DNA of 64,000 bases from Aminiphilus circumscriptus DSM 16581 (GTDB lineage: Bacteria; Synergistota; Synergistia; Synergistales; Aminiphilaceae): the NCBI RefSeq assembly GCF_000526375.1, contig NZ_JAFY01000002.1, positions 620,001 to 684,000 on the forward strand, given 5' to 3'. The notes beneath the pieces were generated by a model. It did no database searches. It was not told the origin of the DNA and saw nothing but the letters and a program-made list of their open reading frames with translations. Shown here in pieces: positions 7,809 through 53,520 of the stretch. The translations under genes were made by a program, and so were the position numbers. The number at the start of each line of letters is the position of its first letter. Within the stretch, counting starts at the first letter, position 1.

Positions 7809-8317
7809 GCGTTCCTCCTCTTTTTTCTCTCGCTCTTTTTGCGCCTTGGACGGGGGATGGAAACGCGAGAAGGGAGGCCCTCGAGGGCCTCCCTTCTTTG
7901 CGAATCCGGCAGGCGGAAAGATTACTCCTTCCACCCATTGCCCGTAGCGCCTCGGAGAGGTGCGACGGGTCGAAGGTGCGTTTATTCTGCTTGGGATCTC
8001 TTGCTCATGCGAACAATTTATTTTATTTGGAAAGCATAGCATGTCTTCCCTTTCCTGACAAGATGATGGAAGCCGGAAGCGTGGATATCATTTTTTTGCA
8101 GAGGAGCTGCGGCGTCATTTCGGAAAGCTCCGAAAGAACGGGTTTTCTCAATCCGGAACGTGCATTTCCAGTGCGTTCCGGATTGAGGAGTCGTGCCGTG
8201 AAATGCCTACCGTGTTTTATCGTTGAAGCCGTCAAAAAAGAAAAAAGAACGCGATTTCTCGAGGAAAGATTCGAATATGACGATCTATTTTTCGGAGAAG
8301 AGTGATGGCGATCTTTT
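7809..8317. other. Divergent intergenic region with two strong hairpins
   Basis: No convincing gene between the radical SAM gene and the Hsp20 promoter. Two large inverted repeats stand out: a 26-bp perfect palindrome at 7870-7895, and a 14-bp perfect stem (8147-8160 with 8174-8187) that extends inward by G-T and G-C pairs. Neither is followed by a T tract on either strand, so they are not simple terminators. They may be leader structures or operator palindromes. Confidence 0.6.
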
Positions 8318-31564: not shown

Positions 31565-31906
31565 TCCCCAATCTCCTCTTTATGACGAGACAGGGATCAT
31601 GTCATCCTGAGGAAGCCCTGAACACGCTTCCCGAAAAATATCCACAGAGGAACGAAGAGGGGAACTCCTCCGCATAGAACCCGTTTCCCGCATTCAGAAG
31701 GGCGAAAAGGAGGAAGTCAGCGGTCTTGCGGTCCCTTTTTCAACTCCAGTGGCGATTTTTGGAGATTCTCCCCCCAATGGACAGGAGAAACCCTCTCGCC
31801 ATAAGGGTGTGCGCTGTTCCGACGTGGCTGCCCCCGGGATCTCGGGAAAGAAGGCCGAAGAGTGCTCCCCGTCAGGGGCGCATGTATCGGTCTCCTCCGT
31901 CAACGG
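31565..31906. other. Intergenic region with an end remnant of the dispersed repeat
   Basis: No gene supported. 31607-31622 (CTGAGGAAGCCCTGAA) is identical to one end of the dispersed element found at 53396-53495; nothing else of that element is present, so it looks like a solo end or a decayed copy. Confidence 0.5.
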
Positions 31907-38658: not shown

Positions 38659-39551
38659 GTGTCTTGCGGGAGATCGTGTTTCTGAGCGGAAAGGGCGGCG
38701 CGGGCAAGACCTGCATCACCGCCTCTCTCGGTGCCGTCCTTCCGGGAGCGAAGGTGTTTTGCGACGCCGACGTGGACGCGCCGAACCTGGAGCTGCTCCT
38801 CGCTCCGGAAATTCTTGAGGAGGAGCCCTTCGAGAGCGGTCTTCGCGCGGAAATCGATCCGGGTGCCTGCACAGGCTGCGGCCGATGTGAGGTGGCCTGC
38901 CGTTTTCGTGCCGTCGCGGTTCGGGACGGACGTGCCCAGGTGGATGCTTTTGCCTGTGAGGGATGTGGCGTCTGTGCCCTGGTCTGTCCGGAAAAAGCCG
39001 TGTCCTTCGTTCCCGTCGTGCAGGGGCGCCTTTTCCGGAGCCGCACCGTTCTCGGATGTTTCGAACATGCCCGTCTCCGGCCCGGAGGGGCCAACTCGGG
39101 AAAACTCGTGCAGCTCCTGCGGCGGCGGGCCCGGGAGACGGCGCTTCGAGAAGGCGTCTCGGTGCTCCTCGTGGACGGACCTCCCGGAATCGCCTGTCCT
39201 GCCATCTCGTCCCTCGCCGGTGCGAACGTGGCCCTGCTGGTGACGGAACCCACCGATTCGGCCCGAGCCGATCTGCTGCGCATCGCCGAGCTGGCCGGGC
39301 GTTTTCGCGTTCCCTTCGGCATTGTTCTCAACAAGGCGGACCTTTCCCGCGAGGGTGCCCACAGGACGGAAGAACTCTGTGCGGAGCGCCACTGGCCGCT
39401 TCTTGCTCGGTTTCCCTTTGTTGAAGAAATTCCGCGGTGCATCGCCCGACGAGAGGTCCCGGTAAAACCCTTGGGGGAGGAGCTGCACCGCCTCGCGGAA
39501 GGTCTTTCTCTTTTGCTCACCAAAGCGGCGGAGTGCGGAACGGGAGTGTAG
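38655..39551 (+). CDS. MinD-like ATPase with inserted 2x4Fe-4S ferredoxin domain (2)
   Basis: 298 residues, paralogue of the preceding gene and overlapping it by 4 nt (ATGA). LSGKGGAGKTC Walker A near residue 10, DADVDAPNLE, ferredoxin insert with CTGCGRCEVACRF and CEGCGVCALVCPE (about 73-115), then DGPPGIACPAISSL. The two proteins probably form a heterodimer with four 4Fe-4S clusters, coupling ATP hydrolysis to electron or cluster transfer to the NifX-like partner. Confidence 0.92.
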   Translation: MSVLREIVFLSGKGGAGKTCITASLGAVLPGAKVFCDADVDAPNLELLLAPEILEEEPFESGLRAEIDPGACTGCGRCEVACRFRAVAVRDGRAQVDAFACEGCGVCALVCPEKAVSFVPVVQGRLFRSRTVLGCFEHARLRPGGANSGKLVQLLRRRARETALREGVSVLLVDGPPGIACPAISSLAGANVALLVTEPTDSARADLLRIAELAGRFRVPFGIVLNKADLSREGAHRTEELCAERHWPLLARFPFVEEIPRCIARREVPVKPLGEELHRLAEGLSLLLTKAAECGTGV

Positions 39552-39634
39552 CGGAGGCGCTTGTTCCCGGTGAGAGGAGAACGGTGTTTCGCGCAGTTGT
39601 GTGCGTTCCGACTGCGCAAAAGGATTTTCGTGGG

Positions 39635-39669
39635 GTGCGGCCGCCGCCTGCGGCGGTCAGCCGCACTTT
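39635..39669 (+). terminator. Terminator-like hairpin after the MinD genes
   Basis: GTGCGGC (39635-39641) pairs perfectly with GCCGCAC (39660-39666) and encloses a second stem CGCCG / CGGCG; TTT follows, and a longer T run (CTTTTT) comes 11 bp later. Confidence 0.55.
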
Positions 39670-39689
39670 CCCGGGAGTACCTTTTTGTG
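39661..39689 (+). repeat. 29-bp dispersed repeat, copy 1
   Basis: Shares 26 of 29 positions with 42479-42507. Core CCCGGGAGT-CCTTTTTGTG. The CTTTTTGTG end also recurs in the 18936 and 19054 repeats. All copies are intergenic. Confidence 0.6.
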
Positions 39690-39922
39690 GTTGAGCAACA
39701 GGTCCATGCCCGCGGTAGCGACTGGACTCCAGCTACACCTCGGAGGTTTCGACATACCCTGTCCGTATCAGGCGCCGCGCTGGTTGGGCACGTTTTTTCG
39801 GAGAAGAGCCAAGGCCGTCGTTCCTTTTGGGGCGGCGGCTTTTATCGTGAACGGTTGCTCCGGAAGGCGAAGTGTGGTACGTCTCTGGGGTCTTCCGGAG
39901 AAGAACGTGGAGAAAATGGTAA

Positions 39923-40019
39923 GGAAGCCCTGAAAAAAACGTTTCCATTTTACCTTGACTCGGGTTGCATCAGTGCGAGACGCCCTGCGGGGCTGACGTA
40001 GCCTTATTTCAGAGGTTGC
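39923..40019 (+). repeat. ~100-bp dispersed element, copy A (MITE-like)
   Basis: Shares the internal block CTTGACTCGGGT-GCATCAG and GCCCTGCGGGGCTGACGTAG with copies B and C. The left end is GGAAGCCCTGAA; the right end (TTATTTCAGAGGTTGC) is diverged. The most decayed of the three copies. Same orientation as copy B. Confidence 0.8.
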
Positions 40020-40047
40020 GAACATTGAGGAAAGGACGGGGAAAGCG

Positions 40048-40512
40048 ATGAACAGGATCGTCGTTGCCAGCGTGTGTGCAAGCGCTCGCCGGAAGGATCC
40101 CAAGTCGCCCGTGGAGGAGGGGCTCTTCGACGCGGGCAAGGGGCTGCGAAACGATGCACACTGGGGTTTTTCCGACAGGCATGTGAGCCTTCTCCGGGAG
40201 GAGGACGTGGCTGCGGCGGAGTCGGAGGCGGGGTTTCCCTTTCCTCCGGGCAGTCTCGCGGAAAATCTGAGGCTTCGGGGGCTTCCGGAGGAACTCCCGC
40301 TCGGAGCGCTTCTCAAAGGCCCCGAGGAAACGCCGGTTCTCCGGATTAGGGAGCGTGGCAAACGAGCGGACGAACCCCATTCTTACGATTACCGGGGGTG
40401 GTGTCTACTGCCGAAGGTGGGATATTTTCTCGAAGTCGTCCGAGGCGGTGTGCTGCGCCCCGGAGACGCGCTGCGTCTCGAAGAGACGGGCGGATCCGGA
40501 GAAAACCGCTGA
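40048..40512 (+). CDS. MOSC-domain protein
   Basis: 154 residues. FPPGSLAENLRLRGL near residues 65-80 and the following LPLGALLKGPEETPVLRIRERGKRADEPHSY, with VVRGGVLRPGDALRL at the end, match the compact bacterial MOSC domain (as in MoaB/MogA-linked MOSC proteins). MOSC domains bind molybdenum or sulfur in moco-related chemistry. The neighbouring NifX/ORP genes make a molybdenum link plausible. AGGAAAGGACGGGGAAAG precedes the ATG. Converges on the GGDEF gene. Confidence 0.82.
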   Translation: MNRIVVASVCASARRKDPKSPVEEGLFDAGKGLRNDAHWGFSDRHVSLLREEDVAAAESEAGFPFPPGSLAENLRLRGLPEELPLGALLKGPEETPVLRIRERGKRADEPHSYDYRGWCLLPKVGYFLEVVRGGVLRPGDALRLEETGGSGENR

Positions 40513-40534
40513 AGGAGTGCTCCGAGGGGGAGTG

Positions 40535-41839
40535 TTACCGGGATGTGCTCTGGTCGAGGCACTCCACCCGGTTCTTCCCCTTGCGCTTTGCCGCATAGAG
40601 GGCCTGGTCGGCTCGGTTCAGAAATTCCGAAGCGCTCTCTCCCCGTCTGTATTGGGTGATGCCGAAGCTGGCGAAGACGGGCATGCCGCCTCCCGCGTCC
40701 AGCGAGGCGATCTCTCTGCGGAGTCGTTCCGCCAGGGTGCCCGCATCGGAGGCGTTTGTCGGGGTCAGGACGGCGAATTCCTCTCCGCCCCACCGGGCGA
40801 AAATGTCCGAGGAGCGGATGTGACGCTGCACCAGCTCGGACACGGCGACGAGAATGCGATCTCCCTCCAGGTGTCCCCGGCTGTCGTTGATGGCCTTGAA
40901 GTTGTCCAGATCGACCATGACCAGAGAGAGTGGTCGGCTGTGCTCTCGCGCACGCTCCATTTCCAGGGAGAGAAGTTTGTCGAAACGATGCCGGTTCAGG
41001 GCGTTCGTCAGGGTGTCCATGCTCGCGTCCCGTTCGAGCTGACCGATGAGCCGACGGTTGTTTTCCTCCAGAAGTTTCCGTTCCGTCACATCCTCCAGAA
41101 TGAGGGCGACCCGTCCTGCCTGGGGGCGATAGAGCGTGTAGGCAAAACAGCGCCATCCCCCCAGAAGGGGCGTCTCTCCGGAGATCCGTTTTCCCGTTCG
41201 TGCGACGCGCCGCATCTGTTCGAACAGAAGGTGCGTTCGCCGGGCGAGGTCGCCTTTTTCGCCGCAGAAAAGTTCGTGGAGATGGGGAAAGAGGGTGGTG
41301 TCCCCGAGTCTGTTCTCCAGGAAGGTTGAGAAGAGAATGTCGTTACTCCTCTCCTGCGGTTTCTGCCCGGTGAGGCGCCGGAAAGCGGGGTTCGCGTCGA
41401 GAATGCGGAAATCGTCGGGAGCGCCGCCTTCGCCCGGGAGGAACTCGAAGAGGACGAAGCCGTTGTGCATGGTGTCGAAAAGGGACCGATAACGGCTCTC
41501 GCTCTCGGCGAGGGCCTGCGTGGCCCGCAGCTCCTCCGAGATATCCCGCGCGGCGACCAGAAACCACGTGGGAATGCCCTCGAGGTTCGGCACGGCGGAG
41601 ACGGAGACCTTCAGAGGGAGGATTGTGCCGTCCCGACGGAGAATGCTGCAGGAAATATCGCAAAGCGCATGTCCTGCAAGAATGCGTTCGGCTCGTTCCG
41701 CAGTAGCGCGGTGTTCTTCCGGAGAAAGGAATTCCAGGACGCTCGTTCCCCGGATTGCCTCCGGCGAGGCGGCGCCGAGAAGGTTCGCGAAAGGGCCGTT
41801 GCAGAGGGAAAAGGCGAGGTCGAGATCGGCGAGAGCCAT
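40535..41839 (-). CDS. PAS-PAS-GGDEF diguanylate cyclase
   Basis: 434 residues from the first ATG. Two PAS-like domains (about 1-105 and 115-255) and a C-terminal GGDEF domain (about 265-425) with an intact GGEEF site and DNFKAINDSRGHLEGD. No membrane segment, so a cytosolic c-di-GMP synthase. Oddity: the first PAS domain clearly begins upstream of this ATG (PACFALFEASPLPM...), and the same frame stays open to a TGA at 42032-42034 without any ATG, GTG or TTG. An ATT at 42025, 7 nt from AAGAGGTG, is the best upstream start. See findings. Confidence 0.85.
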   Translation of the reverse strand: MALADLDLAFSLCNGPFANLLGAASPEAIRGTSVLEFLSPEEHRATAERAERILAGHALCDISCSILRRDGTILPLKVSVSAVPNLEGIPTWFLVAARDISEELRATQALAESESRYRSLFDTMHNGFVLFEFLPGEGGAPDDFRILDANPAFRRLTGQKPQERSNDILFSTFLENRLGDTTLFPHLHELFCGEKGDLARRTHLLFEQMRRVARTGKRISGETPLLGGWRCFAYTLYRPQAGRVALILEDVTERKLLEENNRRLIGQLERDASMDTLTNALNRHRFDKLLSLEMERAREHSRPLSLVMVDLDNFKAINDSRGHLEGDRILVAVSELVQRHIRSSDIFARWGGEEFAVLTPTNASDAGTLAERLRREIASLDAGGGMPVFASFGITQYRRGESASEFLNRADQALYAAKRKGKNRVECLDQSTSR

Positions 41840-42478
41840 GGGAAGCGGCGATGCCTCGAAAAGTGCGAAGCAGGCAGGAACAACATCTCCTCGTTCCGGG
41901 GCGGAACAGGAGTGGTATTCCCCGGGTCCTGGTGTTCGTGCCGTCCCAGGGGTACGGTGCGGCGAATCCCTCCGGGGAGAATGGATCGTCTCGACACAGG
42001 CTGGTCTGTCGTGCAGTTCCGAAATGAGATGTCACCTCTTGCTGCGCGTGCCACTGCCGTCCCGCCGAGGGCGGCTTTTTCGCGTTTCTTCCGTCATCGT
42101 ACCCGCTCGGAAAAGCGAGGTCCCAGAAAAGGCGGGATCTCTGCCTCATTCTCCGATGACGTGCGCCCTGTGGCGTGGAGACGAACGAACGAAGAATTTC
42201 CGGATAGTTTGATTGAGGAAACAAGGAGCATTATGATCCATAAGGCATTTTTGAAAAGAGTCTTGGGACTCATCTGCTTGTGAGAAGGTCGTTTTCCGTG
42301 ATTTGACGGAATTTCGACAAAATCGTGTGATGGCCGGATCGCTCAAAGAACAGGATGGTTTCGGGCCGGAGATGGCGAGAAGAAGCGATCGTGTGTCGAG
42401 ATGTGGGGAAAGAGTGGTGTGCGCCAGGGTGTGCAGAAAGGTTTTTCTTGTGTCCGACGACTGCCTGCTGGCGATGAA

Positions 42479-42507
42479 CCGCACGTGCCCGGGAGTGCCT
42501 TTTTGTG
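42479..42507 (+). repeat. 29-bp dispersed repeat, copy 2
   Basis: 26 of 29 positions identical to 39661-39689; ends in CCTTTTTGTG. Confidence 0.6.
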
Positions 42508-42622
42508 CTCGATGCGTGTGTTCGGTCGGCGGGGCTCCGTCGGGAGAGTAGCCGGCCTGCCGCAGCCGGAGGGTGAAAAACGCCCGGAGGATTTTGGAAG
42601 GTCCCTCCCGTTTTTCTCGAAA

Positions 42623-42631
42623 TGCTATACT
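42623..42631 (+). promoter_or_regulatory. Extended -10 promoter for the peptidase pair
   Basis: TGCTATACT: good -10 hexamer with the extended TG element. It would give a ~155-nt leader before the RocB-like gene. Confidence 0.45.
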
Positions 42632-42793
42632 TCGAGGCGTCAGCCCGGAACATGTGGGTCATGTGTGGCTCTTGGCTCCGGGGTGCCGGAAACAGGCTCT
42701 TTCTCCGTGTTTCATTCAAATTTGCCGGACGAGGGGGACTCTTCGGAGTGACCGGCCAGACGGAAACCCCCGCCGGAACGCAGGTGATGCATC

Positions 42794-44506
42794 GTGTTGG
42801 AGAACACCCGAAAAGGCATCTACACATTGCTGCTGGATCTCGTGCGGATTCCCAGCGTCTCCGCCTCGCCCTCCGGGGAGAATCAGCTCGCCGCATTTCT
42901 CAGGAACCGGCTGGCGGAGCTTCCCTATTTTCAGGAGAAGCCGCAGAACCTCTTTCTCGCGGATCTGGAAGGGGACCCGCTTCGTCGCACGTCGCTCTTC
43001 GCCTTCGTGGAGGCCGTTCCCTCAACGCCGCGGACGGTGATTCTCACCGGTCACTACGACGTGGTGGACGTGGACGTCTGCGGAGCGCTCAAAACCTGGG
43101 CCTTCGACGCCGAGGAGTACACCCGTCGGATTGGTGACGTTCCCCTTCCGGAGGATGCCGCTCGCGATCTGGCATCGGGGAATTATCTCTTCGGCAGGGG
43201 TGTCATGGACATGAAGTGCGGTCTCGCCATCCAGGCTGCTTTGCTGGCGGAGTATGCCGCCGATCCGGGAAAGCTGGGAGTGAACCTGCTCTTCCTCGCC
43301 GTTCCCGACGAGGAGAACAACTCCGCGGGCATGCGTCTCTCCGTGTCGCATCTGGTGCGCTTCGCCCGCGAACGAGGGCTCGACTATCTGGCCTGCATCG
43401 ACGGTGAACCCTCCAACGCGGGGTTCTGCGGCGGCAAGGGAGGCGGGAACGCATCCCGGCGCATGTATTTCGTGGGCACCGCGGGAAAGATCATGCCTGC
43501 CTTTCTCTTTCTCGGCAAGGAGGCCCACGTGGGAGAATACTTCGGAGGTTTCAACGCCACTCTTCCCGCGTCCCGTCTCGTGCGGCTTCTCGAGGGAAAT
43601 CCACGGTTCGTGGAGCGCCTCGGTACCGAGGCGCTCACGCCTCCCACGTGTCTCAAGCTCAAGGATCTTCGGGACATCTACTCCGTCACGCTTCCCGAGC
43701 GGGCGGCGGCGTACTTTAACGTCATGACGCTCTCCCGCACGCCAGCGCAGGTTCTGGAGGAGATGACCGCCCTCGCCGGGCAAGCCCTGGCGGAGGCGCT
43801 CGGGCAGGCTCGGGAGAACGCGAAATCCTTCGGGGACGAGGCGTTCCGCACCTTTACGGAGGAAACGCTCCGGGGGGGCACTTCGGAAAGGCGGGAGTGC
43901 CTGGTTCGGACCTATCGGGACGTGCGGGCCCTGGCAAGGGAAATCTACGACAGGGAAAACGCCTCCGCCGGAATGAGCCTGGAAGCGTATGAAGAGGCGT
44001 TTCTCGCCGCTCTTCCTTCCGGAATGGACGAGAGGGACCGGGCGCTGGCCCTCATGGGCGAGGTGGTCAATCTCTCAGGACTCAAGGGGCCGCTGGCGGT
44101 GGTCGGCTTCGTGCCCCCCTACTATCCGCATCGGGGCAATCTGCGCCGTTCCGACAAGGAGCACGCTCTTCTCGCCGCTCTCGCTGCGGTGGCGACAAAA
44201 GGACGCGAGGAGTTCGGCGAGGAGATCACCTATGTGGAGTATTTCGGTGGCATCACCGACATGAGCTTTCTCGGATTCCAGGGAGAGCCCGAGGCGCTTG
44301 CCGCGCTCGCGGAGAACATGCCGGGATGGGGGAAGCTCTACTCGCTTCCTCTGGAGGATCTGCTGCGGCTCGACGTCCCCGTGGCGAACATCGGTCCCGC
44401 CGGCAAGGACGCTCACAAGGATACGGAACGGCTGGAACTGGATTTCTCTCTCCGGGTGGCGCCGGAACTTCTGCGCTGCGCCGTGGAGCATCTCGGTCGT
44501 TCCTGA
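42794..44506 (+). CDS. RocB-like M20-family peptidase/amidohydrolase
   Basis: 570 residues. The zinc-peptidase M20 framework is visible: GHYDVVDV (His87, Asp89), FGRGVMDMKCG (Asp139) and the catalytic/ligand cluster AVPDEENNSAG (Asp172-Glu174). Length and the C-terminal segments (VVGFVPPYYPHRGNLR, YVEYFGGITDMSFLGFQG, NIGPAGKDAHKDTERL) match RocB, an arginine-utilisation protein of unproven enzymatic activity. The start is the GTG at 42794 after AGGTGATG. It precedes a PepV-like dipeptidase by 66 nt, so the pair probably serves peptide or amino-acid catabolism. Confidence 0.88.
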   Translation: MLENTRKGIYTLLLDLVRIPSVSASPSGENQLAAFLRNRLAELPYFQEKPQNLFLADLEGDPLRRTSLFAFVEAVPSTPRTVILTGHYDVVDVDVCGALKTWAFDAEEYTRRIGDVPLPEDAARDLASGNYLFGRGVMDMKCGLAIQAALLAEYAADPGKLGVNLLFLAVPDEENNSAGMRLSVSHLVRFARERGLDYLACIDGEPSNAGFCGGKGGGNASRRMYFVGTAGKIMPAFLFLGKEAHVGEYFGGFNATLPASRLVRLLEGNPRFVERLGTEALTPPTCLKLKDLRDIYSVTLPERAAAYFNVMTLSRTPAQVLEEMTALAGQALAEALGQARENAKSFGDEAFRTFTEETLRGGTSERRECLVRTYRDVRALAREIYDRENASAGMSLEAYEEAFLAALPSGMDERDRALALMGEVVNLSGLKGPLAVVGFVPPYYPHRGNLRRSDKEHALLAALAAVATKGREEFGEEITYVEYFGGITDMSFLGFQGEPEALAALAENMPGWGKLYSLPLEDLLRLDVPVANIGPAGKDAHKDTERLELDFSLRVAPELLRCAVEHLGRS

Positions 44507-44572
44507 GGATCGCATCGATGGACCTGGCCGGGCTGGAGAGGTCCGGAACGGAAGAAGAGCGGGAGGTGCCCT

Positions 44573-46036
44573 GTGACGAACGGAAACGGCAGAATGAAAC
44601 AGGTGGCGACGGCGTTGGACGAGCGCATCGACGCGCTCTTTCCCGCCTATCTGGAGGTGCTTCGGGAAAGCCTTCGCATTCCCAGCGTAAAGGGTGAGCC
44701 CCGAGAGGGTGCTCCTTTCGGTGTGGAAGTGCGGGCGGCCCTGGATCATGCTCTGGGTGCGGCGGCCTCTCTCGGCTTCCGCACCGTGGATGTGGACGGC
44801 ATGATCGGCTACGCCGAGTACGGCGAAGGGGAGGAGATGGTGGCGGTCATCGGTCACCTCGATGTGGTGCCCGAGGGAACGGGCTGGACCGTTCCCCCCT
44901 TCGAGGGCGTGGTACGGGACGGCTTTCTCTACGGAAGGGGAACCGGCGACGACAAGGGCCCCATCTTCGGTGCTCTCTTCGGCCTGGCGGCCATCCGGGA
45001 TCTGAAAATACCCCTGAAACGACGCATTCGCGTTCTCTTTGGCTGCGACGAGGAGAGCGGCTTCGCCGACGTGGCCCACTACGTGACGAAGGAGGAGCTT
45101 CCGGTGCTCGGCTTCACGCCCGACGCGGAATTTCCCCTGGTGAACGCGGAAAAGGGCGGTATGAACATGGAATTGCTGCGAACCTTCCGCGGGGACGGCG
45201 CGATCAGACTCCTCTCTTTTCTCGGCGGCAGCGCGCCCAACGTGGTCCCCGATCGTGCCGAGGCGCGTCTCCTCGTTCCTTCCAGCGAGGCCCGGGATAT
45301 TCTCGCGACTCTCACCGCCGAGGCCTCCGCGAAGGGATGGAGCCTTGAGAGTGGCACCGAGCCGGCGACGGAACCGGACACGACGGTGCTCTTCCTGCGG
45401 ACCCGGGGGATTGCGGCGCACGGCAGCACGCCAGAGAAGGGAGAGAACGCCGTAGCCCGCCTGCTGCTGCTCCTGACCGCGCTTCCCGGGGACGGCGAGG
45501 TGGCGCGGTGTGCCCGGGACTTCGCCGCCGTTCTCGGTGAGGAGACCGACGGAACCTCTTTGGGGGTTCCTCTCGAGGACGCCGTCTCGGGAAAACTCAC
45601 GGTGAACCTCGGCATGGCTCTCTGGACTGCCCGGGGCGAGCGCGCCGGCGAAGGCGTGCTCGATCTCACCCTCAATGTGCGCCATCCCGTGACGTTCACC
45701 GCCGACGATGTGGTTCCCGCCCTGCGTGCTTCCGTGGAAAGAGCTGGGTTTGTGCTGGAGAACGTGCGGGGAAAGGCGGCGGTGCATTTCCCCGTCGAAT
45801 CCGAGCTTGTGCGCAAGCTCCAACAGGCCTACACGAGCAAGACCGGCCTCGACGCGACGCCGCGCTCCATGGGCGGCGGGACCTACGCGAAGGGGCTGCC
45901 GAACGTGGTGGCCTTCGGAACCCGTTTTCTCGATGAACCGGAACTGGCCCATCAGGCGGACGAACGAATTTCCCTGGACCGCATGCGCCTTGCAATGAAG
46001 ATTCTCGCCGAGGCCATGGTCCTTCTGGCGCAATAG
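44573..46036 (+). CDS. PepV-like M20 dipeptidase
   Basis: 487 residues. M20 signatures with dinuclear zinc ligands: VIGHLDVVPEG (His95, Asp97), GRGTGDDKGP (Asp126), GCDEESGF (Glu160-Glu161) and TPDAEFPLVNAEKGG, as in PepV/carnosinase-like dipeptidases. The lid domain (about 190-370) includes IAAHGSTPEKGENAV. The start is the GTG at 44573 after GGGAGGTG. Cytosolic hydrolysis of dipeptides is expected. Confidence 0.93.
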   Translation: MTNGNGRMKQVATALDERIDALFPAYLEVLRESLRIPSVKGEPREGAPFGVEVRAALDHALGAAASLGFRTVDVDGMIGYAEYGEGEEMVAVIGHLDVVPEGTGWTVPPFEGVVRDGFLYGRGTGDDKGPIFGALFGLAAIRDLKIPLKRRIRVLFGCDEESGFADVAHYVTKEELPVLGFTPDAEFPLVNAEKGGMNMELLRTFRGDGAIRLLSFLGGSAPNVVPDRAEARLLVPSSEARDILATLTAEASAKGWSLESGTEPATEPDTTVLFLRTRGIAAHGSTPEKGENAVARLLLLLTALPGDGEVARCARDFAAVLGEETDGTSLGVPLEDAVSGKLTVNLGMALWTARGERAGEGVLDLTLNVRHPVTFTADDVVPALRASVERAGFVLENVRGKAAVHFPVESELVRKLQQAYTSKTGLDATPRSMGGGTYAKGLPNVVAFGTRFLDEPELAHQADERISLDRMRLAMKILAEAMVLLAQ

Positions 46037-46042
46037 GGCATT

Positions 46043-47104
46043 TCAGCCGACCGCTCCGGAAACCTCGGCACCGCCGGAGGGTTCCGGAGCGGAGAGAAGT
46101 CGCTTCTCCAAAGATTCCAGTTCCGCTCTCGTCTCCGGCGGAAGAGACTCCAGCAATTCCTTCCGCAGGTCCTTGCCCAACGCTTCCCGGGATGCTCCTT
46201 TCCGCCTGTCCGAGTCGGTCCAGCTTATCTTCCTGCGGCGGCAGTAGAGGTCGATGTCGAGAAAGCGCTCTCCCTCGGCGGAGTACTCCAGTCCCATGAG
46301 AAAAGACTTGATCCTTTCCGGGGCGTGGAAGGTGAGGAGGCGCAGCCGATAGGTCCGCACGGGAAGCAGAATGTGCGCCGTGTCGGTACCCCATCCCTCT
46401 CCGAGGACAAATCCTGTCTGGTGGGCCTCCAGCACGAGTTCCACCCGCCGGAGATGCTCTTCGTAGCGTTCGAACTTGTCGTACACGTGGATGAGCACCT
46501 CATTCCAGTCCTTGTTGCCCATGCTCTCGTTGAAGAGTTCCAGAGCCCTTGGCTGGAGTCTGCGGAAGGCCTCGTCGAAGGGCAGAGGGAGCACCAGCAC
46601 CTGATCGAGGAGTTCCCGCATCAGAAGAAGGCGGTTCAGCGGTTTTGTAGTGAAGCAGACCACGGTTCCCTCCGAGGGGGTCCAGCGGAGCAGCTCCTTG
46701 AGCGTGCTCGGTGTTCCGTGGAAATCCTTTCCCAGTTCCTCCACGAGCGAGGACGTGTCCGGGCAGGTGCAGCAGAGCCGGAACAACAGGATCCGGGGGA
46801 GAAGGGACGCCGCCGCCAGGAAATGGGCGAGGCCGTCGTTCACGAAATGGCAGAGAATTTCCCCCGGCGAGGCGTTGCAGACGGCGAGGGATGGCTCCTC
46901 CAGCTCGATGTCCCAGAGAGGACGCGCCCTTCCTTCCGAAGCATCCACGAGGTAGACGACGGTCTGTCCCTCCCGGGTTTTCTCCGCAATTCCGTGGTTC
47001 CTGTGGATCTCCGCCGAGAAGACATCCGCAAGATACCGCTGCAGTGCGTCCTTTTTTCCTTGAAGCAGCAGAAGCCATGGACCTCCGCGGACGAGAGAGA
47101 GCAC
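46043..47104 (-). CDS. Conserved-looking hypothetical protein
   Basis: 353 residues, start GTG at 47104 (AAAGGAGA upstream, 8 nt). I do not recognise a family. The N-terminal half has alternating hydrophobic strands (VLSLVRGGPWLLLLQG, TVVYLVDASEG) and a Cys pair LCCTCPD near 115; the middle is helical, the last 60 residues charged and coiled-coil-like (LRKELLESLPPETRAELESLEKRLL). No signal peptide or membrane helix. A nucleotide-binding loop is not visible. It follows the MarR-GNAT gene by 116 nt on the same strand and may be under its control. Confidence 0.7.
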   Translation of the reverse strand: MLSLVRGGPWLLLLQGKKDALQRYLADVFSAEIHRNHGIAEKTREGQTVVYLVDASEGRARPLWDIELEEPSLAVCNASPGEILCHFVNDGLAHFLAAASLLPRILLFRLCCTCPDTSSLVEELGKDFHGTPSTLKELLRWTPSEGTVVCFTTKPLNRLLLMRELLDQVLVLPLPFDEAFRRLQPRALELFNESMGNKDWNEVLIHVYDKFERYEEHLRRVELVLEAHQTGFVLGEGWGTDTAHILLPVRTYRLRLLTFHAPERIKSFLMGLEYSAEGERFLDIDLYCRRRKISWTDSDRRKGASREALGKDLRKELLESLPPETRAELESLEKRLLSAPEPSGGAEVSGAVG

Positions 47105-47220
47105 GAAGTCATTCTCCTTTCTTTCTTTGTGATTCTCCGGATTCTGTTTTTCCCCTTTTCGTCGGCACCGTTTTTGGGGTGCCGGCCGCCTTTTTGAAGC
47201 GTCCTGTGTGTGCAGGGATG

Positions 47221-48162
47221 TCAGAGAACACTGTCCCAGCGTTCCTCCGTAAGGGTTTTCCCCCAGATATAGTGCTCCTTCGTCTCCATAAGTGTGAATC
47301 CCCATTTTTCATAGAGATGTCGTGCCGCCAGCAGGTCGGACACGGTCCAGAGAAAGACTCGTTCGTATCCTTCGCTCGCACAGAAGTTCACGGCCTTTTC
47401 CATAAGACGGTTCCCGAACCCCTTGCCGCGGTATTCAGGCTCCAGAAGAAACCAACGAAGCTGGGCCGTTTTCTCCTCCGTTTCGACGACCGCGATGGAG
47501 CCTCCGAAGAGGCCGTCCTGTTCGACGACCCAGACGTTTCCCTTCCCCTTTCGGCGCGGATCGCCGCAGCCGCTCCAATCTTTCAGGAAGGATGCCATGC
47601 CCGCCATCACGTAATATTCGAACGTCGCGTCGAAACCGTATTCTTCCTCGTAGAGACGGGCGTGACGGGAGGCGATGCAGCTCAGGTCTCCGGGAAGGAA
47701 GGTGCGAATGTCCGGCTCCGGAGCGCTTCCGGCGTCGAGGAGGTGTTCGATGGCCCCCATCGAGAGGAGAAGACGGTGCATTTCCCGTGGCGACAGGTGT
47801 CCCAGCAGGGTTCCGAGCTGCCGATCCGACGCCGCTTCGAGCTGTTCCAGGGCGTTTTTGCCGTCCGAAGTGAGCTGGAGAACGGTACTTCGTCCATCCA
47901 GAGGTGACGGCGCCCTGACCACGAGACCGATGCGGCAGAAGCGCGAGAGCATGCGGCTCAGATAGCCCGGATCGAGGTGCAGAAGCGTGGACAGGTCCCT
48001 GGCGGTGCATCGTTCCTGGTGGCCGATTTCAAAGAGCACTCGCGCTTCGGCGAGAGAAAACGGACTCTCCAAAAGAAAACGGTTCGTCAGGCTCAGTATG
48101 TTCGTGTAGAACCGATTGAAGCGGCGGATGCCCGCCACGGCATCCCCAGAAAGATGTGGCAT
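47221..48162 (-). CDS. MarR-GNAT fusion regulator/acetyltransferase
   Basis: 313 residues. Residues ~1-145 are a MarR winged helix (LAEARVLFEIGHQERCTARDLSTLLHLDPGYLSRMLSRFCRIGLVVRAPSPLDGRSTVLQLTSDGKNALEQL). Residues ~155-310 are a GNAT domain (LRWFLLEPEYRGKGFGNRLMEKAVNFCASEGYERVFLWTVSDLLAARHLYEKWGFTL) with the R-G-K-G-F-G acetyl-CoA loop. Such fusions are known, but their targets are mostly undefined. The ATG at 48162 follows GGAGGAAGAGG. A perfect palindrome (48288-48300) in its promoter is a likely autoregulatory operator. Confidence 0.92.
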   Translation of the reverse strand: MPHLSGDAVAGIRRFNRFYTNILSLTNRFLLESPFSLAEARVLFEIGHQERCTARDLSTLLHLDPGYLSRMLSRFCRIGLVVRAPSPLDGRSTVLQLTSDGKNALEQLEAASDRQLGTLLGHLSPREMHRLLLSMGAIEHLLDAGSAPEPDIRTFLPGDLSCIASRHARLYEEEYGFDATFEYYVMAGMASFLKDWSGCGDPRRKGKGNVWVVEQDGLFGGSIAVVETEEKTAQLRWFLLEPEYRGKGFGNRLMEKAVNFCASEGYERVFLWTVSDLLAARHLYEKWGFTLMETKEHYIWGKTLTEERWDSVL

Positions 48163-48287
48163 CGCCTCTTCCTCCCCGCCGGGGTGTTTGTTGTTCCGGG
48201 CTATGGTTGCATGAAACTCGACCGTTCTTTCCGCGAAAGACGGAACGATCCTTTTTGAGGTGTTGCGAAGAAGCCTAGCAAATAAAC

Positions 48288-48300
48288 TTGACAAAGTCAA
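48288..48300 (-). promoter_or_regulatory. MarR-type operator/promoter
   Basis: TTGACAAAGTCAA, a perfect 5-bp inverted repeat with a 3-bp centre. On the minus strand it supplies TTGACT as a -35 with a weak TAGGCT 17 bp on, 125 bp before the MarR-GNAT start. Confidence 0.55.
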
Positions 48301-48463
48301 TCAAATAAAAATCGAAGTGCACTGTTCTCTCCACATCACATCCGTGAAAGGTCCCTGAATCCACGACTCCTCAAGCGATCGGGGCGAGACCGGTTCGTCT
48401 TGTTCCGCCTGGCCGGGTTGAGTGCACGAGGACACCTCCAAACGCCTTGGAATGTCAACCCGA

Positions 48464-48564
48464 GGAAGTTCTGAACAAAGATCTTTCGCTTTTCCTTGAC
48501 TCGGGTCGCATCAGGCTCTGCGAGGCGCCCTGCGGGGCTGACGTAGCCTTATTCAGAGATTTCC
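48464..48564 (+). repeat. ~100-bp dispersed element, copy B (MITE-like)
   Basis: Begins GGAAGTTCTGAACAAAG and ends CCTTATTCAGAGATTTCC, which are imperfect inverted copies of each other. The interior is almost identical to copy C. Flanks CCGA and CCAA could be a decayed 4-bp target duplication. Confidence 0.85.
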
Positions 48565-48574
48565 CCAACCAAAC

Positions 48575-48672
48575 GTCCAAACGAAACAGAGGTGGAGCCG
48601 GTTCCTTCGTCCATGCCTCTCTGGCGGCGGGTTGCGGCTGGTCCAAATGAAACAGAGGTGGAGCCGGTTTCC
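48575..48672 (+). repeat. Near-identical 31-bp direct repeats
   Basis: 48575-48605 and 48641-48672 share GTCCAAA-GAAACAGAGG plus TGGAGCCGGTT-CC; 66-bp offset. Immediately after element copy B, in otherwise gene-free DNA (48163-48773). Confidence 0.75.
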
Positions 48673-48703
48673 GAGAGATCTCCGCCCAAAATGCGCCGAA
48701 AGA

Positions 48704-48734
48704 AAAAGGCGGAGAGGACTTCTCTCCGCCTTTT
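48704..48734 (-). terminator. Intrinsic terminator of the VWA protein gene
   Basis: AAAAGGCGGAGAG arm with CTCTCCGCCTTTT; on the minus strand TTTTTCTTTC follows. About 40 bp past the stop. Confidence 0.85.
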
Positions 48735-48773
48735 CGGGGAAATGCGGTTCGCGAGGTGCCGTTTTTGAGAAGA

Positions 48774-51308
48774 CTACCGTCTCCGGAGGAAGAGCGCGGG
48801 AAGAAGGAGCAGCAGCAGGGGTGCCAGGTGGAATCCGCTTCCCGCGGAGCATCCGCCGCCACCGCCACCACCGCCGCCGGGTGTGGGCGAAGCGGTGGGG
48901 GTGGGGCCTTCGGTAGGCGTGGGCGTTCCGGAGGGGATGACGCCTCCCTCGGCCTTCACCTGGAAGGAGGTGGTGCGAAGGAAGTTCGTCGCCACGGTGG
49001 CGCCGTCGGGAGAGAAGACGAGCGCCTCATCGCCGGGGCCGGGAATGGACGGAGAGCCGTTCCGATAGGTTTCCACGGCGGCTCCCGAGGAATTCGAGGC
49101 GGTGACGTTGATTTTGTAACTTCCCTCCTGGTAGCTCGTGAGGATGGCGGAGAAGAAACCGTCGTTCGCCGTGGCGTCTCCTCCGGTCCCGTCATCGCGG
49201 AGGGTGAGCGGGGAGGTCGTGCCGTCGGGTGCGGTGAGTGTGGCCTCCATGGTCACTCCCCGCAGGGGGATGCCGTTTCGGCTCGCCCGGGCGAGGAGGC
49301 GGATCGGATCAGGGGGTGTCACGGTGCTGCCTCCGTCGGCAAGCCCCACCACGAGGCCGAAGCCTGTTCCCGTCTCGGGCTGCCCCGTGGCGGAAACGGA
49401 GACTTCGAGGCTCTGCGAGCCCGGATTGTGCAGTTCCACCCGCCATGTCCCCGCGGAGGGATTTGAAATCGCCGCGGTGTAGTCCACGATTCCTCCCTCT
49501 TCCTGGTACTCTCCCGAGGCGGTGACGTCTCCGAGCACGGGATCTCGGAGGGTGATCTCCGCGTCGGAAGAGGCGCCGCGCCAGCTCACGAAGAAGGTGA
49601 CGCCGCCCAGGGTTCCGTCCACGAGGAAGGTCGCCACGTCATTTCCTCCGGCGGCGAGGGTTTTTTCCACGGCGCCGAGGTTCACCGTGTCCGAATAGTT
49701 TCCCAGGGCGGCGAAGAAGACCTCCTGGAGTTCCGTCTGGTTCGTGGGAGAGGCGAAGTACTGTCCCCCTGTCTCGTCCGCGAGCTGGGTGAGGGCCGAA
49801 TTGCCGATGCCGCCCGAGCCGTAGCCGACGGTGATGAGCGGCACCTTCGCGGCCTGGTGCTCCGCGATGACCTCACCCATGGACTTGGTGGAGCTGTTGT
49901 CCGATCCGTCGGTGAGGAGATAGGTCACGCCCAGCACGTCCCCGCTCGCGGTCCCCTTGTAGGTGAGGAAATTCGCGAGCGCCGTGGAGGCCGCGTCGTA
50001 GATGGCGGTCATGTTGCCCGGGGCGAGGCCGCTGATGGCGGCCTTCGCCGTGTTCTTCACGGCCCGGGCGCCCACGTCGTCGGAGGGAATGAACGTGATG
50101 GGATAAATCTGCTCCACCGTGTCGTCGAAACGCACGACCCCGACGGCGCTCTCCTTGGGCAGGGATTCCACGAGGTTCCGCGCCGCCGCCTTGGCGTAGT
50201 CGAGGGGGCTCGGCGCTTCCGGCGTGAAGGGGTCGGAGCCCATGCTTCCGGAATTGTCGATGACGATCTGGTAGACCATGGCGGCCTTGGTGAGCCAGAC
50301 GATCTTTAGATTCGCCTGGGCCGCGGCGAGGTGTGTTCCCGGCGTCACCGCCGTGGTGTACCAATCGGGGGAGGCGGGAGGATTGGCGAAGGCGTACTGG
50401 ACCCGCCCCGGAGCGACCACGTCGCCGCTGACGCCGTCGGAGGAGGGATCCTGGAGGAGCACTTCCCAGCAGCTCTTGCCGTACATGCGTTTCTGGGCCG
50501 TGTCGGTGCTCGCCACGTAGATGTTCGCCGTGGAGTGGTTCAGCCATTTCACCTCGTTCTCGGACGTGGCGTTCCACTGGCGGTTCATGAGAGACGGGCC
50601 GGCGGGAGAGACGTCGGACGACCAGGGCCAGCTTCGGGGAGGATTGGTGTAGGTCGCCACGTATTCGTCGTAGAGCCCGTAGAGGAAATGCCCCGATTCG
50701 TGACCGAGGGTGTAGCCTCCGTCCGCTCGGCTCGTGGGGGTGCTCGCGACTCCCACGAAGGTGTTGCTTCCGAAGACGTCGCCGAAGTTGATGTGCTGTC
50801 CGGGTTTGCCGTAGCCAGCGATGGCTCCCGTGGGCCACGTGTCCGCCTGCCAGACCACCGACGCCTTGTCGGCGAAGGAGCCACCCTGATAGATGTAGAC
50901 TGTTCCGAGCATGTGCTGGCCGTTGGACTGCTCGTAGAGTGCGTCGGACCAGAACTTGATCACCTCTTCCACTTCCTGGGCGCGGGTGCGCTTGGGATCT
51001 CCCGGGGGGATGCTGTCTGCGGAGAGGGTGTCATGGTAGCTGATGGTGATGTCGAAGGCGGTCTTGGTCACCGCCGCCGGATCGAAAGCGCCGGAAGTGA
51101 AGGTTTTCCATTCGCCGTCCACGAGCACTCTTGGTCTGGAGAGAAAGGCGTTGTCCGCGCAAGCCGGGCTCACGCAGAGCGCAACCAGGGCGACGACACA
51201 GCAGAGAAGGAGAAGGGTTGCCGGGAGTGCTTCGGAGAAGCCCTTTCCTTCGAACGGACGCGACACGACACGGAGACGTCCGCCTCTCAGTGTCTGGATG
51301 TTCTCCAT
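48774..51308 (-). CDS. CLCA-like secreted metalloprotease/VWA protein with Synerg-CTERM tail
   Basis: 844 residues. Signal/anchor (about 30-51), then a CLCA-type N-terminal domain with the zinc-protease motif GHESGHFLYGLYDEY (His203, Glu204, His207; downstream Asp-Glu as in CLCA), then a VWA domain with MIDAS DNSGSMGSD (Asp350, Ser352, Ser354), then beta-sandwich and Ig-like domains, a Thr/Pro linker (TPTPTEGPTPTASPTP), a poly-Gly stretch and the tail CSAGSG...LLLLLLPALFLRRR. CLCA proteins self-cleave; whether this one does is not known. AAGGAG upstream of the ATG. The surface-exposed location is inferred from the sorting tail. Confidence 0.88.
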   Translation of the reverse strand: MENIQTLRGGRLRVVSRPFEGKGFSEALPATLLLLCCVVALVALCVSPACADNAFLSRPRVLVDGEWKTFTSGAFDPAAVTKTAFDITISYHDTLSADSIPPGDPKRTRAQEVEEVIKFWSDALYEQSNGQHMLGTVYIYQGGSFADKASVVWQADTWPTGAIAGYGKPGQHINFGDVFGSNTFVGVASTPTSRADGGYTLGHESGHFLYGLYDEYVATYTNPPRSWPWSSDVSPAGPSLMNRQWNATSENEVKWLNHSTANIYVASTDTAQKRMYGKSCWEVLLQDPSSDGVSGDVVAPGRVQYAFANPPASPDWYTTAVTPGTHLAAAQANLKIVWLTKAAMVYQIVIDNSGSMGSDPFTPEAPSPLDYAKAAARNLVESLPKESAVGVVRFDDTVEQIYPITFIPSDDVGARAVKNTAKAAISGLAPGNMTAIYDAASTALANFLTYKGTASGDVLGVTYLLTDGSDNSSTKSMGEVIAEHQAAKVPLITVGYGSGGIGNSALTQLADETGGQYFASPTNQTELQEVFFAALGNYSDTVNLGAVEKTLAAGGNDVATFLVDGTLGGVTFFVSWRGASSDAEITLRDPVLGDVTASGEYQEEGGIVDYTAAISNPSAGTWRVELHNPGSQSLEVSVSATGQPETGTGFGLVVGLADGGSTVTPPDPIRLLARASRNGIPLRGVTMEATLTAPDGTTSPLTLRDDGTGGDATANDGFFSAILTSYQEGSYKINVTASNSSGAAVETYRNGSPSIPGPGDEALVFSPDGATVATNFLRTTSFQVKAEGGVIPSGTPTPTEGPTPTASPTPGGGGGGGGGCSAGSGFHLAPLLLLLLPALFLRRR

Positions 51309-51924
51309 GATCGCTCATCTCCTTTTCTCGTTCACACAGGTTTGATCCGGATATGCTGTCGCTGTACCAAAATGCCTTGAAAGCTCTCACATCTCTTTCC
51401 TTCATGTCTCACCGCTCTCTTTGGCCTGGTCGAAAACGCTTGCCAGTGTCGTCCCCGGGGGATGGCGGAGAAGTCGGGAGACCGGAGAGACGACAGGAGT
51501 GGAAGATGTATCGCTGCCATTATAAAAAATCATGCTGGGAAAATGTTACTTGTGCAGCGAAAAACGTCCCTATGGTTTTTATCCTGTATGCGTTGCGTGT
51601 AAAATGATATTTTCGCCTCCGGCAGGCGCTCTTCGCGTTGCTTTGTCCGTGTCGATTTTCCGAAACACGCGGTTTATACACCGTGAGACTTTGAGAATTC
51701 CGTTTTTCCTCCAGGGGTGATCGATGTTCCACGCCGCGAGGCAGCATTGAAAATCGCAGAAGTGTCCTTTTACGCGCCTTCCAGTGGGCGTACAATGGAA
51801 AAGAAAAAAGCGCGTTGAAAGGCGTCGGGGCGGAAAAATGCATTTTCGCCGCGGAAAGCGGGACGGGAAAGTCTTCTTTGCGACGGGGAGAAACTGAGCC
51901 CTGAGTGTGAAAAGAGGAGCTGAC
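51309..51924. other. Divergent intergenic region, locally A+T-rich
   Basis: No gene supported. A -10-like TACAAT at 51791-51796 (TTTACG 16 bp upstream) could serve the downstream oxidase. An ORF at 51532-51720 with two CxxC pairs has no ribosome-binding site and is not accepted. Confidence 0.5.
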
Positions 51925-53352
51925 ATGGACAACTACGCGAAGGTGACGCCGGAAATTCTGACAGCGCTTGAATCCGTCGTGGGCGTGCGGAACGTGTCCA
52001 CGGATCGGGAAAAGCGCGAGGTCTATTCCTACGACGAGGTGAATCGGGGGTATTGGGACGGCGAGTACGTGGCGGAGGTGGTGGTCTTTCCGGAATCTCC
52101 GGAGCATGTGGCGGCCGTTCTTGCTCTGGCGAACGAGCGGCGCATTCCCGTCACGCCCAGGGGCGCCGGAACGGGACTCTCCGGCGGGGCGGTTCCCCTG
52201 CATCGCGGCATTGTGCTCTCCTTCGAGAAGATGAACCGCATTCTCGAACTGGATACGGACAATCTCACCATCACCGTGGAGCCCGGCATCGTCACGGCGG
52301 AGATCACCAAGGCAGCCCGTGCGGCGGGGCTCCTTTACGCGGGAGACCCCTGCAGCGGCGATGCTTCCTTCATCGGAGGCAACGTGGCGGAAAACGCGGG
52401 GGGAAACAAGGTGGTGAAATACGGCTCCACCGGTGCCTCGGTGCTGGCTCTCGAAGCGGTGCTTCCGGACGGCTCCGTCACCTGGTTCGGAGGCAAGCGC
52501 CGCAAGGACGTGACGGGATACGACTTCGTCCATCTGCTCGTGGGTTCCGAGGGAACCCTTGCGGTGGTGACGAAGATCGTCCTCAAGCTCCTTCCCCTTC
52601 CGGCTCGGGTGGTGGATCTTCTGATTCCTTTTCCCGATACGGAGAGCGCCGTGTCCTTCGTTCCCCGGATTCTCCGGGAGGCGAAGGTGGTGCCGTCCTC
52701 CATCGAGTTCATGGACAGGACCTCCATTCTCCTTGCCCAGCGCTATCTGAACATTCGTCTTCCCCACGACGACGCGGGAGCGCATCTCATCGTCCAGCTC
52801 GAAGGAAACGATCCGAAGATGCTTGCCGACGAATACGAGCGCGTCGGCGACCTCTGTTTCGCCCACGGAGCCCTGGAGGTCTTCGTGGCGGACAACCGAA
52901 ACGTGCGGGACAAGCTCTGGAAAGCCCGAAAGTGCCTCGCCGAGGCGATCATGGCCTTTTCCGCCCACAGCTGTCTCGAGGACATCGCCGTTCCCTCCAG
53001 CGCCGTTCCGGAACTCATGCGGCGCACGGCGGCGATCACCGACAGATGGGGCATCGAGGGAGTGCATTTCGGCCACATCGGCGACGGCAATATGCACATC
53101 AATTTCATGCTCCCTGAAAAACGTTCAGACTGGCACGACCTCTTCTGCGGAGCGCTCCGGGAGCTTTACGCGGCGGCGAGAGACCTGGGGGGGACGATTT
53201 CGGGCGAGCACGGCATCGGATTGAAACGCCGGGACTATATCACGACGGTGCTCGATCCAGCCCAGGTGGAACTCATCCGGCGGGTGAAACGCGCCTTCGA
53301 TCCGAACAACATCCTGAACCCCGGAAAGATCGTCCCCGAAGCGCTTTCCTGA
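51925..53352 (+). CDS. GlcD-type FAD-linked oxidase/dehydrogenase
   Basis: 475 residues. FAD_binding_4 (PCMH) domain: VVVFPESPEHVAAVLALANERRIPVTPRGAGTGLSGGAVPL, EPGIVTAEI, GDPCSGDASFIGGNVAENAGG, GSEGTLAVVTKI; and a C-terminal FAD-oxidase domain ending HIGDGNMHINF, GGTISGEHGIGLKRRDY and FDPNNILNPGKIVP. Family members oxidise 2-hydroxy acids such as glycolate or D-lactate, often with a partner Fe-S protein, which is not encoded here. The ATG at 51925 follows GAGGAG. Confidence 0.93.
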   Translation: MDNYAKVTPEILTALESVVGVRNVSTDREKREVYSYDEVNRGYWDGEYVAEVVVFPESPEHVAAVLALANERRIPVTPRGAGTGLSGGAVPLHRGIVLSFEKMNRILELDTDNLTITVEPGIVTAEITKAARAAGLLYAGDPCSGDASFIGGNVAENAGGNKVVKYGSTGASVLALEAVLPDGSVTWFGGKRRKDVTGYDFVHLLVGSEGTLAVVTKIVLKLLPLPARVVDLLIPFPDTESAVSFVPRILREAKVVPSSIEFMDRTSILLAQRYLNIRLPHDDAGAHLIVQLEGNDPKMLADEYERVGDLCFAHGALEVFVADNRNVRDKLWKARKCLAEAIMAFSAHSCLEDIAVPSSAVPELMRRTAAITDRWGIEGVHFGHIGDGNMHINFMLPEKRSDWHDLFCGALRELYAAARDLGGTISGEHGIGLKRRDYITTVLDPAQVELIRRVKRAFDPNNILNPGKIVPEALS

Positions 53353-53395
53353 CGCGTTCTCCCGGGAAACCGCGCTTCCGGTGTCTTTCGTTCAG

Positions 53396-53495
53396 GGAAT
53401 CTCTGAATAAGGCTACGTCAGCCCCGCAGGGCGCCTCGCAGAGCCTGATGCGACCCGAGTCAAGGGAAAGCGAAAGGTCTTTATTCAGGGCTTCC
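53396..53495 (-). repeat. ~100-bp dispersed element, copy C (MITE-like)
   Basis: Opposite orientation to A and B. Ends GGAATCTCTGAATAAGG and (reverse) GGAAGCCCTGAATAAAG are imperfect terminal inverted repeats. It is flanked on both sides by TCAG (53392-53395 and 53496-53499), a candidate 4-bp target-site duplication. Internal sequence nearly identical to copy B. Confidence 0.88.
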
Positions 53496-53520
53496 TCAGA
53501 ATAGCCGGTTTCCGCCGGTT

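Follow-up and report, generated by a model that had tools for sequence, protein, structure and literature searches.

The window analysed here, 64,000 nucleotides of Aminiphilus circumscriptus DSM 16581, contains three short and closely similar repeats. The question they raise is whether they are mobile elements, and if so what moves them, or whether they act on the genes beside them. The sequence-only reading took them to be probable non-autonomous elements mobilised from elsewhere, and placed them correctly in two orientations: copy A at 39923-40019 (plus strand, 97 bp), copy B at 48464-48564 (plus strand, 101 bp) and copy C at 53396-53495 (minus strand, 100 bp). Copy C is bounded by TCAG on both sides (53392-53395 and 53496-53499), as had been noticed, and copy B by CCGA on the left (48460-48463) and CCAA on the right (48565-48568), while copy A has diverged ends and a decayed target duplication (GTAA/GAAC). 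The imperfect inverted ends are real, although their actual length is 15 bp rather than the ~17 bp originally proposed. Our conclusion is that the three repeats are almost certainly copies of a ~100-bp selfish MITE, present in ~130 copies in this genome and most likely moved by a resident IS5-family transposase. This upholds the idea of mobilisation from elsewhere, which is supported by the genomic copies, the ends of an insertion sequence (IS), empty sites and a 4-bp duplication.

Prokaryotic MITEs are shorter than 500 bp, have inverted ends of 4-30 bp, show direct repeats in their younger copies, lie between genes and are mobilised in trans by an IS (PMC10969869). A search for further copies in the host genome (3.22 Mb in 7 contigs) found 130 places that match a 20-bp pattern from the core when up to 3 mismatches are allowed, compared with 2 for a reversed-pattern control; a sequence search gave at least 44 matches to the MITE, with 40 of 133 candidates scored. 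We analysed 105 of the ~130 host copies, a set in which the more diverged copies are under-sampled, together with 7 from a congener, all extracted from the stretches around listed copies. The consensus, GGAAGCTCTGAATAAAGACCTTTCGCTTTCCCTTGACTCGGGTCGCATCAGGCTCTGCGAGGCGCCCTGCGGGGCTGACGCAGCCTTATTCAGAGATTCC, is 100 bp long, well below 500 bp, and encodes no protein; 72 of the 105 copies have exactly this length, within a range of 88-118 bp. Its ends, GGAAGCTCTGAATAA and GGAATCTCTGAATAA, are 15 bp long, within the range usual for MITEs, and are alike at 14 of 15 positions in the genome consensus. Of the 105 copies, 82 fall between genes, whereas 16% of positions drawn at random from the window do; the count is approximate, given that genes were called by a crude, home-made codon score. 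The set includes two pairs of identical copies and four copies a single change away from the consensus, which suggests fairly recent movement. Some positions vary among the copies, for example 7 and 81, where all four combinations occur, suggesting either exchange between copies or recurrent C-to-T changes. Some copies stand head to tail with a few to tens of bases between them (C1:109400-109694, C5:479460-479660 and loci L042 and L099), an arrangement that would result if one copy had used the target duplication of another as its insertion site.

If these are insertions, the flanks should record it. Perfect 4-bp flanking duplications are found at 61 of the 105 copies, where 3.0 are expected when the right flanks are shuffled among copies. 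The register is exact: shifting it by one base in either direction leaves 2 matching flanks, and alternative lengths of 2, 3 and 5-7 bp account for at most 11 copies each. By majority, the duplicated target reads T/C, T, A, A/G, that is, YTAR. Copies with a perfect duplication are nearer to the consensus (a mean of 5.1 changes, against 7.3 in the rest), and the duplication is thus a feature of the younger copies, as in other MITEs. Within the IS5 family, it is the IS5 subgroup that typically uses 4-bp targets of the form YTAR.

Sites without the element provide a more direct record of insertion. For comparison we used Synergistaceae bacterium UBA5560, a sister species in the same genus whose genome is 81% complete. 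The flanks of 22 copies were joined at a single copy of the duplication, and 21 of these joined segments were searched against the sister genome, the 22nd being omitted for its low complexity. At 11 of the 21 the sister sequence runs straight through the junction with a single copy of the target; the remaining 10 gave partial, complex or no matches, and none was demonstrated to be occupied. Copy B is likewise missing from an otherwise aligned site that holds one CCAA. Empty sites in a related genome, which the sequence-only reading had proposed to look for, are therefore present at 11 of 21 sampled positions and at copy B, and they confirm the 4-bp duplication. Copy C is also missing from the sister species, where its place is taken by an unrelated stretch of ~75 bp with a terminator-like hairpin, and this is not a clean empty site. 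The sister genome, at 81% completeness, yielded 7 MITE copies and, of the IS gene described below, no more than one broken copy. These counts fit an expansion within the lineage of the host, bearing in mind that incompleteness may hide some copies.

What, then, moves the element? A scan of the host genome for transposases carrying DUF772 and DDE_Tnp_1, the set to which our comparison of ends applies, revealed an IS with matching ends in the same genome, as the sequence-only reading had anticipated. It is 1236 bp long (the 1238-bp query held two target bases) and encodes a 320-aa DDE transposase, which scores 364.6 bits on NF033581, 'IS5 family transposase' (cutoff 140), and also matches DDE_Tnp_1 and DUF772; we thus assign it to the IS5 family. 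The host carries four identical intact copies, one copy at 98% identity whose gene is broken, and further ones that have decayed. The target duplications of the IS are TTAA, TTAA, AAAG and CTAG/TTAG, 4 bp long and of YTAR type except for AAAG, which departs from it. Its ends, GGAAACCCTGAACAA and GGAATCTCTGAAAAA, match those of the MITE at 12 of 15 positions on the left and 14 of 15 on the right, and the shared sequence stops there: we found no homology between IS and MITE inside the 15-bp ends. In type II MITEs the ends alone are common to MITE and IS (PMC10969869), and with the resident IS as its autonomous partner the family is, judging by sequence, of this type. IS and MITE copies are in places nested or adjacent: at one locus (L049) an IS copy is placed right at the target of a MITE copy, and an IS fragment adjoins another near C5:277920. 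The window itself holds a decayed left-end fragment of the IS (IS positions 1-193) at 31611-31802 on the plus strand, with 76% identity (E 1.5e-27). An isolated end had been reported at 31607-31622; the end is real, but it begins at 31611 and belongs to this IS remnant rather than to the MITE.

There are two possible explanations for this partial resemblance. The first is that the 320-aa transposase is itself the mobiliser of the MITE, which we consider probable from the matching ends and targets. The second is that the MITE owes its movement to another transposase or to one now extinct, and that the resident IS is only related to the true partner. The restriction of homology to the 15-bp ends would fit the latter, as would the 3 of 15 differences at the left end and a 70-bp core that matches nothing found, and the true partner could be an IS that has been lost or one beyond the DUF772/DDE_Tnp_1 set. 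Against this, the right end of the resident IS is nearly identical to that of the MITE and the two make the same 4-bp YTAR-like duplication; the IS has been recently active, since four of its copies are identical; and each of the two MITE-bearing genomes contains relatives of the IS. We therefore regard a different partner as unlikely. Most likely, then, the 320-aa transposase recognises the 15-bp ends of the MITE in trans and inserts it at 4-bp targets that resemble YTAR and are duplicated in the process. The family has grown to ~130 copies, many of them gained after the split from the sister species, and lies mainly between genes, where it does little harm. A selfish element mobilised in trans accounts for all of the observations.

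The remaining question is whether the repeats do something for the host. Three observations could be taken to mean that the MITE is a structured RNA or a regulatory repeat (an attenuator, terminator or promoter) under selection at conserved positions: the fold of its bottom strand (-44.8 kcal/mol) is more stable than those of shuffled sequences (z -4.0), copy A is found at the matching position in the sister species, and TTGAC occurs within the interior of all three window copies, as had been noticed. Inverted ends, however, are by themselves enough to give any transcript a stem. Over 103 distinct copies base pairing is conserved to no greater degree than when columns are shuffled, with no excess of two-sided changes, and Rfam gave no match over the MITE copies; on these two grounds we reject a regulatory RNA. 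The earlier suggestion that the elements could affect transcription through TTGAC fares no better, given the lack of covariation and of any strong bias in the orientation of the flanking gene pairs (24 divergent, 20 convergent, 30 same-strand). Furthermore, no sigma-70 promoter or -10 hexamer partnering TTGAC was found in the stretches scanned around copies A and C, and the promoter reading is rejected on that account. Finally, half or more of the positions sampled are unfilled in the sister species. The regulatory or RNA reading is thus largely refuted, and we give it almost no credence.

Copy A deserves separate consideration, in that conserved position in distant relatives had been put forward as a sign of a regulatory RNA. 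It is indeed shared with the sister species, while B, C and sampled others are missing there. It lies inside a 269-bp run that is identical between the species, yet this is one of several such runs, and we reject any special conservation of the copy, the whole surrounding block being near-identical. That block, 39000-42700, includes unchanged runs of 564 and 752 bp, with surroundings mostly at 88-98%, and suggests recent exchange or strong conservation. Because the block is near-identical overall and other copies are missing in the sister species, the sharing of copy A points to inheritance or gene exchange and not to a conserved RNA. Its presence in both species indicates an older insertion or exchange of the block. 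Copy A alone might still have been co-opted, for example in the leader of the ORF starting at 40048, with the other copies selfish: the site is shared, and an ATG stands 28 bases downstream, identical in both species. Since the surrounding 3.7 kb are near-identical as well, this conservation extends beyond the element, and we think co-option very unlikely. The decayed ends of copy A are neutral, speaking neither for nor against it.

The MITE has a narrow distribution. Of 188 Synergistota genomes, 2 contain it, and these belong to one genus; a search of a genome collection with the core returned one contig only, from UBA5560; and searches of viral contigs and of plasmids turned up no copy. Nor did the host genome, the 188 Synergistota genomes, the viral contigs or the plasmids yield a longer relative of the core. 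A literature search found no published description of the family, which does not prove that there is none. It is a well-understood kind of element, seen here for the first time in the genus of Aminiphilus circumscriptus DSM 16581.

Within that genome the closest relation is the resident IS5-family IS (NF033581 type), which has its ends and YTAR-type 4-bp duplication in common with the MITE but differs in encoding a 320-aa DDE transposase and in an interior unrelated to the MITE core. Among elements of other bacteria, the Correia elements (CREE/NEMIS) of Neisseria come closest in style; they are 100-155 bp long, number more than 120 copies per genome and have the IS5-family IS1106 as their proposed mobiliser (PMC3898611, PMC10969869). 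They resemble the host MITE in size, in having inverted ends and no transposase gene, in copy number and in proposed IS5-family mobilisation. They have, however, 26-bp inverted repeats and a TA duplication, whereas the host MITE has 15-bp ends and a 4-bp YTAR target, and they carry tested promoters and IHF sites, whereas the MITE gave no promoter match in the stretches scanned around A and C. Chunjie of Geobacter uraniireducens and QMITE2 of Coxiella burnetii are likewise short and intergenic, with inverted ends and direct repeats that fade with age (PMC10969869), but at 178-235 bp and ~190 bp respectively, the latter with 7-9-bp direct repeats, both differ from the host MITE in sequence and length.

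The general understanding of MITE function is unchanged by this family. What it adds is a record of a MITE expansion in the Synergistota in which the probable partner IS survives intact in the host and a sister species shows empty sites precise to the base. A burst could conveniently be dated here, and mobilisation in trans by an IS5-family transposase put to the test. A further reading, which we hold unlikely, is that this apparently undescribed, one-genus family has a 70-bp core that is not derived from the IS, is perhaps kept alike by exchange between copies, and could serve transposition or the host in some way beyond that of filler.

Other features of the window and of the copies' surroundings are recorded here in their own right. 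A second intergenic repeat, AACRGAGRTRGAGCCRGYTYCCGAKAGAYCTCCGCC, stands beside copy B as two units at 48585-48686, with others at loci L226-L233; the host has 11 copies and the sister species several matches, and next to copy B the host has part of the unit twice, where the sister species has it once. A dispersed repeat with TTATGCTCTAAAGAGTGTGC, also present at several places in the sister species, adjoins two MITE copies, in the flanks of L084 and L025 (host C2, ~586.5 kb and 331.8 kb). The window also carries a molybdenum/tungsten cofactor riboswitch (RF01055) on the minus strand at 7877-7987, with a score of 41.8 bits.
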